Positions 30,130-32,927 of a DNA stretch of 64,000 nucleotides are shown here, piece by piece. Each line of letters starts with the position of its first letter. Positions within the stretch are counted from its first letter, which is position 1. The DNA is from Microbulbifer hydrolyticus (GTDB lineage Bacteria; Pseudomonadota; Gammaproteobacteria; Pseudomonadales; Cellvibrionaceae). A program made the translations under genes and the position numbers. Where the stretch lies: assembly GCF_009931115.1 (NCBI RefSeq), contig NZ_CP047491.1, positions 3,051,501 through 3,115,500 of the forward strand, given 5' to 3'. The notes beneath the pieces were generated by a model. That model saw only the letters and a list, made by a program, of their open reading frames with translations, made no database searches and was not told the DNA's origin.

Positions 30130-32331
30130 TTAGTGGTGAATATCTTTCCAGTATTCGCGATTCAGCAGCCAGGCAAAGATAAAGAACACCAGGATGAACG
30201 CCAGCACATAGAAACCTATGCGCTTGCGGGTTTCCGCCATGGGCTCGGCAATGTACTCCATGAAGTTCACCAGATCGTAGACCGCCTGGTCGAACTGAAC
30301 GTCATCCATGGAGCCTTTTACTTTGTCCACCTTGAGGCTGCCGCAGTTGGCATCCATGATGGGGTTACCCATTTCATCGCGCACCACCTTGCCGTGATCG
30401 CGCTTGGGTCCGGGCGCGCACTCGGGCAGCCCCTGGAGCTCCATCAGCACGTGCGGCATCCCCACGTTGGGGAAGACCTTGTTGTTCACCCCCAGCGGAC
30501 GGCTGTCATCCTTGTAAAAGCTGCGCAGGTAAGTGTACAGCCATTCGGGAGAGCGGGCGCGCGCAACCAGGGTCAGGTCCGGTGGAGCAGCGCCAAACCA
30601 GGTCTTGGAGTCTTCAGGCTTCATCGCGATCTGCATCAGATCACCAATCTTGTCGTCGCCCAGCACCAGGTTCTGTGCCATCAGCTCATTGGGGATACCC
30701 AGGTCAGTAGCAACGCGCTCCCAGCGGGAGAAGTTGGCGCTATGACACCCCATACAGTAGTTCACAAAATACTTGGCACCACGCTGCAGGGACGGCTTGT
30801 CGCCAAGATCAATATTGATGTGGTCCAGTTCAACGGAGCTCTCAGCACCGACCGCCTTGATCGGGATAAAGGTGAGCAGTAAAACTGCAATGATACCGCC
30901 GAACAGCACGATAAACGTTTTACTGCCAGAAGGGCTGGTGACCCGGGCAGGTTCCGCATGTACCACATCGCGATCGGTCAGCCACGGAAGGATCGCAAAG
31001 AATACCGCGAACAACAGGGACATGGCGCAGACAAACAGGCTTGCCTTCCAGTTCACCACAGCCATCCACAGGAACAGCACACCGAAGACACCACTCACGA
31101 TCCAGGACGCCAGGCCTTTACGGGTAGTCGGGTTGGTCCAGATTGGCATGGTGACAAAGAACGCGAAATAGAACAGCGTGGCCACCTGCGCCAGGAAGTT
31201 TCGGCCCGGAGTCGGTGATTTCACACCCAGGTAACCCAGGATGATGAAGACCGCCGCAAAAACCAGCAGCAGAACCTTAGGCAGCACACCTTTGTAGCGA
31301 ATGGACCTCACCGGGCTCTTATCCAGCCACGGCAGTACAAACAGGATGGCGATTGCCGCACCCATGGCAACAAGGCCGAGGAACTTGGCCGTCAGCGGGC
31401 CGATATCGATGGTCACTGCACGCAGCACCGCGTAGAACGGCGTGAAGTACCATACCGGCGCAATATGCTCCGGGGTCTTCAGCGGGTTGGCTTCTTCGAA
31501 GTTGGCATACTCCAGGAAGAACCCTCCCATTTCCGGGAAGAAAAACACCACCACACAGAAAGCGAACAGGAATACGGCCACACCTACCAGGTCATGCACG
31601 GTGTAGTACGGGTGGAAGGCTACGCCATCCAGGGGTACGCCGTTCGCGTCCTTGTTCTTCTTGATCTCGATACCGTCGGGGTTATTGGAACCCACTTCGT
31701 GCAGCGCAAGAATATGCAGGACGACCAGCAGTACCAGTACCAGAGGCAGTGCGATCACGTGAAGAGAGAAGAAGCGCGTGAGGGTAATACCCGAGATCAG
31801 GTAGTCACCACGAATCCATTGCACAAGATCCTCACCGATGCCGGGAATCGCGCCAAACAGGGATACGATCACCTGCGCCCCCCAGTAGGACATCTGCCCC
31901 CAGGGTAGCACGTAGCCCATAAAGGCTTCCGCCATCAGCACCAGGTAAATACACATGCCAAAGATCCACACCAGCTCCCGCGGCGGCTTGTACGAACCGT
32001 ACATCAGGCCGCGGAACATGTGCAGATAGACAACCACGAAGAATGCGGAAGCCCCGGTGGAGTGCAGGTAGCGGATAATCCACCCCATATCCACATCCCG
32101 CATGATGTATTCCACGGAAGCGAATGCGCCCTCAGCCGTCGGGTTATAGCTCATCACCAGCCAGATGCCGGTCAGCAACTGGTTGACCAGAACCAGCATG
32201 GAGAGCACGCCGAAGAAATACCACAGGTTGAAGTTTTTGGGCGCGTAGTACTTGCCCATGTGGGTATCCCACGCGCGATAGATAGGAAGACGCTGGTCGA
32301 CCCAATCTCCCAGTGCAGTTAGCCAGTTCAT
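30130..32331 (-). CDS. Fused cytochrome b / cytochrome c1 (FbcH-like)
   Basis: 733 residues in one uninterrupted frame. Residues 1 to about 400 are cytochrome b: heme-ligand His pairs H90/H104 and H191/H206, the Qo motif PVWY at 292-295. Two extra membrane segments lie at about 407-428 and 430-451. A signal-like segment (471-490) ends in AVGA and leads into cytochrome c1, with the heme site CMGCH at 526-530 and a C-terminal anchor. In Pseudomonas these are separate genes; in Bradyrhizobium FbcH a fused precursor is cut into b and c1. Processing near residue 496 is inferred. Overlaps petA by four bases (ATGA). Confidence 0.93.
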   Translation of the reverse strand: MNWLTALGDWVDQRLPIYRAWDTHMGKYYAPKNFNLWYFFGVLSMLVLVNQLLTGIWLVMSYNPTAEGAFASVEYIMRDVDMGWIIRYLHSTGASAFFVVVYLHMFRGLMYGSYKPPRELVWIFGMCIYLVLMAEAFMGYVLPWGQMSYWGAQVIVSLFGAIPGIGEDLVQWIRGDYLISGITLTRFFSLHVIALPLVLVLLVVLHILALHEVGSNNPDGIEIKKNKDANGVPLDGVAFHPYYTVHDLVGVAVFLFAFCVVVFFFPEMGGFFLEYANFEEANPLKTPEHIAPVWYFTPFYAVLRAVTIDIGPLTAKFLGLVAMGAAIAILFVLPWLDKSPVRSIRYKGVLPKVLLLVFAAVFIILGYLGVKSPTPGRNFLAQVATLFYFAFFVTMPIWTNPTTRKGLASWIVSGVFGVLFLWMAVVNWKASLFVCAMSLLFAVFFAILPWLTDRDVVHAEPARVTSPSGSKTFIVLFGGIIAVLLLTFIPIKAVGAESSVELDHINIDLGDKPSLQRGAKYFVNYCMGCHSANFSRWERVATDLGIPNELMAQNLVLGDDKIGDLMQIAMKPEDSKTWFGAAPPDLTLVARARSPEWLYTYLRSFYKDDSRPLGVNNKVFPNVGMPHVLMELQGLPECAPGPKRDHGKVVRDEMGNPIMDANCGSLKVDKVKGSMDDVQFDQAVYDLVNFMEYIAEPMAETRKRIGFYVLAFILVFFIFAWLLNREYWKDIHH

Positions 32332-32927
32332 GCGCCACCCTCCTGATCCACGCCAATTACGATGACATCGTCGCCTTCATAGGAATACGGCGGAACATCC
32401 AGGTTGGTAGGTGCCGGCACACCCTTATACACGCGGCCAGCCAGATCGTACTTGGAGCCGTGACAGGGGCAGAAAAAGCCGCCCATCCACTCGCTGCCAC
32501 CAAGGTCAGCAGCACCAACTTCCGGGCGATACATGGGCGCGCAACCCAGATGGGTGCACAGGCCCACCAGAACCAGGGTCTGGGGCTTGATCGCGCGATT
32601 TTCAGGATCGACGTAAGCGGGCTGTTTGGACTCGGCTGACTTGGGGTCACGCAACAGCGGATCCACCTTGACCAGGTTATCCAGGGTCTCCTGGGTACGG
32701 CGCACCACGAACACCGGCTTTCCTCGCCACTCAACCGTGACCATCTGGCCCGGTTCAAGCTTGCCGATATTGTATTTTACTGGCGCGCCGGCGGCCTTGG
32801 CCTTAGCACTCGGATTCCAGGAGGCGACAAAAGGTACAGCGACTCCAACCGCGCCTGCGCCACCTACTACAGAGGTGGCGGCGGTCAGAAATCGACGACG
32901 CCCCACATTTACACCGTCATCACTCAT
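32328..32927 (-). CDS. petA: Rieske iron-sulfur subunit of cytochrome bc1
   Basis: 199 residues. Carries a [2Fe-2S] cluster and passes electrons from ubiquinol to cytochrome c1. A twin-arginine signal/anchor is at the N-terminus (GRRRFLTAATS), as usual for Rieske proteins exported folded by Tat. Cluster motifs CTHLGC and CPCHGS are intact. GGGAGA precedes the ATG. First gene of the two-gene bc1 operon. Confidence 0.97.
   Translation of the reverse strand: MSDDGVNVGRRRFLTAATSVVGGAGAVGVAVPFVASWNPSAKAKAAGAPVKYNIGKLEPGQMVTVEWRGKPVFVVRRTQETLDNLVKVDPLLRDPKSAESKQPAYVDPENRAIKPQTLVLVGLCTHLGCAPMYRPEVGAADLGGSEWMGGFFCPCHGSKYDLAGRVYKGVPAPTNLDVPPYSYEGDDVIVIGVDQEGGA

Follow-up and report, generated by a model that had tools for sequence, protein, structure and literature searches.

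A fused cytochrome b/c1 precursor gene in Microbulbifer hydrolyticus and a two-state helix G/H segment probably exchanged between its relatives

We analysed a stretch of 64,000 nucleotides from Microbulbifer hydrolyticus (contig NZ_CP047491.1, positions 3,051,501 to 3,115,500; hereafter the window), which encodes cytochrome b and cytochrome c1 as one protein. The explanation that best fits our results, and that we consider likely, is a fused bc1 precursor that is cut, and that carries a two-state segment exchanged by homologous recombination. An extra membrane hairpin would travel with helices G and H as a long version of this segment, relatives would carry a short version, and the two versions would have been swapped between lineages by homologous recombination within the gene. 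The switching segment is the surprising part of the analysis and was absent from the original prediction for this DNA. As a rule, cytochrome b is regarded as an invariant core of eight helices and is used to trace descent. The features are as follows, in window coordinates, with residue numbers of the fused protein.

30130..32331, minus strand: fused cytochrome b / cytochrome c1 precursor gene, 733 codons plus stop
31126..32331, minus strand: cytochrome b core, residues 1-402, with eight helices, two His pairs and PVWY (8smr_I alignment, Pfam)
30946..31284, minus strand: two-state segment, residues about 350-462, comprising helices G and H, the optional hairpin and the first part of the tail; the right-hand limit is approximate
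30973..31113, minus strand: extra membrane hairpin, helix 9 (407-426) and helix 10 (432-453)
30937..30957, minus strand: conserved C-terminal tail of cytochrome b, AEPARVT, residues 459-465
30844..30927, minus strand: signal-like helix of c1, residues 469-495, running into AVGA (493-496), a likely signal peptidase I site
30133..30843, minus strand: cytochrome c1, residues 497-733, with CMGCH at 526-530 and a C-terminal anchor at 699-732
32328..32927, minus strand: Rieske iron-sulphur subunit (petA), identified through TIGR01416

The fused gene is a single ATG-to-stop frame with no internal stops, and it is the only match in the one-contig genome of 4.2 Mb. The original prediction had read both cytochromes, b and c1, as complete in this frame, and this was confirmed. 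Pfam places Cytochrome_B at residues 27-214, Cytochrom_B_C at 280-389 and Cytochrom_C1 at 511-730. The cytochrome b part thus has both its N- and C-terminal domains, together with two His pairs (H90/H104/H191/H206) and the PxWY motif as PVWY at 292; the c1 part has PF02167, a CxxCH motif and the C-terminal anchor. The Pseudomonas aeruginosa structures align to residues 9-403 (8smr_I, cytochrome b, the best solved relative of the core) and 501-729 (8smr_J, c1). These are the closest solved b and c1; however, they are two separate chains, and the P. aeruginosa cytochrome b has 403 residues and lacks the hairpin. The Rieske gene precedes the fused gene and overlaps it by four bases, and the neighbouring frames are those that we take to be sspA, sspB, rpsI and rplM. 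From its sequence, the gene encodes a working-looking precursor of respiratory complex III (the bc1 complex).

The two extra membrane segments that had been proposed at 407-451 are real by both methods used. Hydropathy peaks lie at 408-426, 430-448, 473-491 and 705-723, and the AlphaFold2 model, built from 27 sequences and with a mean pLDDT of 70.6, places helices at 349-369, 375-393, 407-426, 432-453 (broken into 432-446 and 448-453), 469-495 and 699-732; block pLDDT values are 86-96 across residues 391-460. Ten helices are therefore predicted before the signal helix instead of the standard eight, and the first eight align with the standard cytochrome b fold. On this model, the predicted ten-helix count is that of a long variant of cytochrome b and gives no ground for excluding the protein. 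In 24 long-form rows, the loop between helices H and 9 carries on average 1.9 K/R and 0.4 D/E, which fits the cytoplasmic side, and the loop between helices 9 and 10 carries 0.7 K/R and 1.4 D/E, which fits the periplasmic side. In a Foldseek search against the PDB, the longest alignment among the 50 matches listed of 187 covered 416 columns; the alignment lengths are consistent with there being no solved cytochrome b that has the hairpin. A search of literature titles and abstracts, in which subscription journals are thinly covered and which is weak evidence, returned no account of this lineage's b/c1 fusion or of the hairpin, and the parts of PMC6256036 and PMC10715153 that were available describe no b/c1 fusion. 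The hairpin is thus a cytochrome b variant for which the literature searched gave no description.

Both states of the segment occur within one genus in five genera among those read (g2, g9, g14, g23 and g29), and the genus of the window, which is long, has a short-form sister genus. Nine long/short pairs from the same genus had mean identities of 95, 96, 97, 95 and 95% over five windows of residues 5-300, then 86% at 300-350, 69% at 350-375 and 57% at 375-402. The last two values are close to those of long/short pairs from different genera (62.5% and 57.5%). Downstream, the same-genus pairs reached 63% at 455-480 and 76-92% over 480-700, with 92% at 580-640; the different-genus pairs had 57-77% over 480-700. 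The pair L032/L042 was identical in all five windows of 5-300 and had 92% identity at 300-350, 72 and 62% past residue 350, and then 87-97%.

Phylogenies of the core and of the segment were compared in 40 family rows (at most two rows per genus and state, drawn from 70) and in 67 rows (23 of the 31 loci of genus g1 left out); the core trees leave out the G/H columns. With 40 rows, the core tree had 10 state changes, and the tree constraining the long forms to a single clade was rejected (lnL 775 lower, p-AU 0.0005). The tree of the segment (350-402 plus 455-462) had one state change, with the long/short split supported at 100/99. With 67 rows, the core tree had 11 changes and the segment tree again one. 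Windows of 42-61 columns along the protein gave 10-18 changes, except for 4 at 300-349, a window that touches the two-state segment, and 1 at 350-402. Beside the segment, shorter windows (26-36 columns) gave 8 at 310-345, 9 at 320-345, 8 at 455-490 and 11 at 465-500. When its 11 state-linked columns were removed, the segment still gave only 5 changes against 10-17 in controls.

The residues of the two forms differ in a consistent manner. Cys384 is found in 27/27 short forms of the family, in 30/34 other short forms and in 27/43 unfused sequences of the order, as against 1/68 long forms of the family and 0/13 other long forms. The short form also keeps Ser351 and an EKT-type motif before the tail, as in unfused relatives, and is therefore not merely the long form with a deletion. 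One long form, L051, is placed within the short forms of genus g23 (branch of five rows, 98 starred), and its hairpin belongs to the common family of hairpins; judging from this placement, the hairpin of L051 was probably imported.

These observations argue for repeated exchange of a cassette comprising helices G and H, with or without helices 9 and 10, possibly in short patches, and we regard such exchange as probable. We favour, with somewhat less assurance, the broader reading that the cassette moves repeatedly, and probably both ways, from genus to genus inside a respiratory gene present in single copy, and that each move would switch the outer surface of complex III in one step. The alternative is that no DNA was exchanged: gains or losses of the hairpin occurred in place, and helices G and H then adapted at the same positions each time (convergent co-adaptation). 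We consider this rather unlikely, although several results fit it. It has to contend with the unfused-type residues and motif of the short form, and with L051, which is long among short forms and yet has a hairpin of the common family.

Codon usage bears on both readings. We compared codon identity at shared residues, in pairs that are not independent of one another. At codons 300-349 the excess over expectation was +11 to +12 for same-genus pairs, both of the same and of different state. For same-genus pairs of the same state it was +10 at 350-361 and +11 at 375-402; same-genus pairs of different state lost it, with -6 and +2, respectively, which argues against adaptation in place. Codons 362-374 were uninformative (+1 and +4). 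Taken over the segment as a whole, the excess was +3.0 for near pairs of different state (+13.3 in the flank) and +3.1 for pairs from different genera, but only +6.6 for same-genus pairs of the same state, a difference within error. Two near pairs retain a clear excess in the segment (L192/L199, +16; L032/L042, +12), as adaptation in place would predict. Third positions outside the 11 state-linked columns gave 14 changes versus 13-20 in controls, with no clear grouping by state, which likewise favours that alternative; near-invariant codons gave 19 versus 17-20, with no state signal. Signal at both kinds of site is probably saturated. In the five closest pairs, codons 362-374 keep their native similarity (67%, expected 45%), which also fits adaptation in place; any exchange would thus have been patchy, or part of the change would be co-adaptation. 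The background columns of the segment retain part of the genus signal (63%, between 78% and 55%), a further point against exchange.

A further point, which fits both readings, is that the state-linked residues of helix H (384, 387, 394 and 397) recur every three to four residues and lie on one face, the pattern expected if helices 9 and 10 pack directly there. The test for this face gave p = 0.011, uncorrected and the best of nine stretches; the state-linked positions in helix G (350/351, 354, 357 and 361) are suggestive only (p = 0.16). Our guess is that the hairpin packs against the outward-facing side of helices G and H, where it would alter contacts with lipid or with a partner complex; a docking surface on G/H is our best guess for its role. 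We also considered terminal oxidase content as a cause of the hairpin, and saw no simple link when the matches were read by eye. Over the cut-off, 114/120 family genomes have ccoN and 104/120 have CtaD, and the genomes with only a weak best CtaD match include both states (G096, G112 and G132 long, G056 short).

In these bacteria a helix pair has come and gone in cytochrome b many times, with matching changes in G and H. The same-genus long/short pairs offer natural near-isogenic material for studying what this face of the complex does, be it in partner docking, with lipids or in supercomplexes. Cytochrome b trees of these bacteria may mix two histories.

The precursor would be processed in the manner of FbcH. 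FbcH of Bradyrhizobium japonicum is a cytochrome b/c1 precursor with a Rieske gene upstream, and it is cut after synthesis into b and c1. Thony-Meyer (1989) is listed for it among the references of PMC6256036. As in the FbcH type, the gene in the window has b and c1 in one open frame, and a signal-type helix with a cleavage motif precedes c1. The helix (469-495) ending in AVGA (493-496) was as originally described, and the solved P. aeruginosa c1 aligns from residue 501, just past this motif. In the proposed sequence of events, the ten helices of b would thread into the membrane with the tail of b staying in the cytoplasm, helix 11 would lead c1 to the periplasm, haem would be attached to c1 and, by analogy with FbcH, signal peptidase I would cut behind residue 496 and so release b and c1 as two proteins. 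The fusion might instead remain uncleaved, so that the complex would contain a single b/c1 polypeptide. Our searches returned no cleavage data for this lineage, which leaves some room for this; however, it is improbable given the FbcH precedent and an AVGA-type motif between tail and CxxCH in 114/132 fused loci (loose motif search).

The layout nevertheless differs from the classical FbcH type, as had been suggested. Five fused loci of family f250, from another class of the phylum, are Bradyrhizobium-like in layout and have the one frame, the tail, the signal-type helix and the cleavage-like site; all five lack the extra helices. The original prediction placed these helices at the b/c1 junction. 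Their position does not bear this out. The conserved tail of cytochrome b (PxPxRVT) lies near the protein end in unfused relatives, which in this order commonly end in an EKTKPVPERVT-type tail. In short fused forms this type of tail continues directly into the c1 signal helix. In long forms the hairpin lies between helix H and the tail and adds about 50-70 residues, with more in L038 and L039. Being upstream of the conserved tail, the hairpin at 407-453 is, by sequence position, part of cytochrome b and not a product of the fusion. The idea that the helices are a spacer, required by the fusion for insertion or cutting of c1, draws on their closeness to the junction and is very improbable: 26/90 fused loci of the family and the five of f250 do without the hairpin, and other families of the class have unfused cytochromes b with a hairpin at the same place.

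The hairpins of different fused families are homologous to one another (hhalign E 8.6e-15 without the tail). The short-form fused proteins of Cellvibrionaceae, Halieaceae and Spongiibacteraceae belong to the same fusion clade and share the tail and the signal helix with the protein in the window; they differ in lacking helices 9-10 and in their helix G/H residues. Loci L076-L085 and L088 encode the unfused long cytochromes b just mentioned, in frames of 460-496 codons with the hairpin before a PxPERV tail, and form one clade (9 rows kept). Their hairpin has no detectable homology to that of the fused forms: hhalign probabilities of 92.7 and 94.7% with the tail dropped to 0.7 and 0.5% without it. 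The idea that the hairpin arose by duplication of helices G and H found no support. The hhalign probabilities were 1.2% (family set), 0.6% (unfused set) and 26% (other-family set, tail included); with the tail removed they were at most 16%, and an unrelated control stretch reached 9.8%. Two of all these weak alignments spanned 40-42 columns. In L123 (Methylomonas) and L134 (Crenotrichaceae), cytochrome b extends about 60-70 residues past the tail, by eye with no membrane hairpin. L039 (G095) has a fused form of 815 codons whose loop between helices 9 and 10 contains additional hydrophobic stretches, two helices as judged by eye; L038 (G015) has a smaller insertion in that loop.

The fusion itself is ordinary for the family and FbcH-like in design. 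All 48 genomes of the genus match the fused protein, 47 of them, including that of the window, in one piece over residues 1-733; the 48th (G015, locus L038) has a single longer frame of 771. A sequencing or assembly error that merged two genes, which the original prediction had named as a possible refutation at 30.85-30.95 kb, can be dismissed on this count and on the intact frame. Among Cellvibrionaceae, 120/120 drawn genomes match. The frames were read directly in 91 family loci, since listed frame lengths read through stops (L089-L091 have long listed frames and proved split once read); 64 were fused and long, 26 fused and short, and one (L040) was broken, with an undetermined residue near the break. 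The fusion is therefore not unusual for the lineage, contrary to the original prediction, which had allowed for the same fused form throughout relatives: this holds for the fusion (90/91) but not for the extra helices, which 26 of those 90 lack. What stands of the earlier interpretation is the b/c1 fusion, the cleavage-like site and the non-classical layout, and what falls is the rarity of the fusion and the junction role of the helices.

Among the 80 best-matching named loci, 27 were fused (6 long, 21 short) and 53 split. The fused ones include Cellvibrio, Marinimicrobium, Gilvimarinus, Endobugula, Halieaceae, Porticoccaceae, Zhongshania and Pseudohongiella. A single precursor for b and c1 is shared by a large group of families. 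All loci of Pseudomonadaceae (17/17), Halomonadaceae (7/7) and Marinobacteraceae (5/5) were split (29/29), in line with the earlier statement that Pseudomonas keeps the two genes separate. In a chosen set of 16 loci from other orders of the class, none was fused.

A tree of 147 rows, which includes the G/H columns, was calculated without L040, L130, L134, L177, L187, L208 and same-state near-copies of more than 90% identity; rows L176 (no recognised cytochrome b) and L087 and L147 (no c1 found) were dropped. The fused rows of the lineage form one clade (75 rows, 97 starred), with the split family f14 inside it. Rows of f44 (Pseudohongiellaceae-type) and one member of f46 fall outside this clade, with split lineages between. 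The f250 fusions also fall outside, and the unfused lineages that separate them from the lineage's fusion speak against common descent. Several independent fusions are the simplest reading of this tree, and the fusion of the lineage probably arose separately from the alphaproteobacterial-type (FbcH) fusion. The f44 loci L072, L113-L115, L117, L118, L120, L219 and L220, together with L073 (f46), are apparently independent b/c1 fusions within the same order, and in the f44-type fusions the junction that follows the tail reads GRW or GRF, as opposed to the DGG/NGG type elsewhere.

In family f14 (L063, L064, L209 and L210, with L208 partly undetermined), the genes are split and cytochrome b ends in a junction-like helix. 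This retained helix and the nested position of the family (95/95) make it likely that a fused gene was split again, which would have left a nine-helix cytochrome b. The alternative, that f14 represents the state before fusion, was not rejected (p-AU 0.289) in a test that also includes the G/H columns. The c1 was read in two of these loci (L063 and L064), where it carries a signal peptide of its own.
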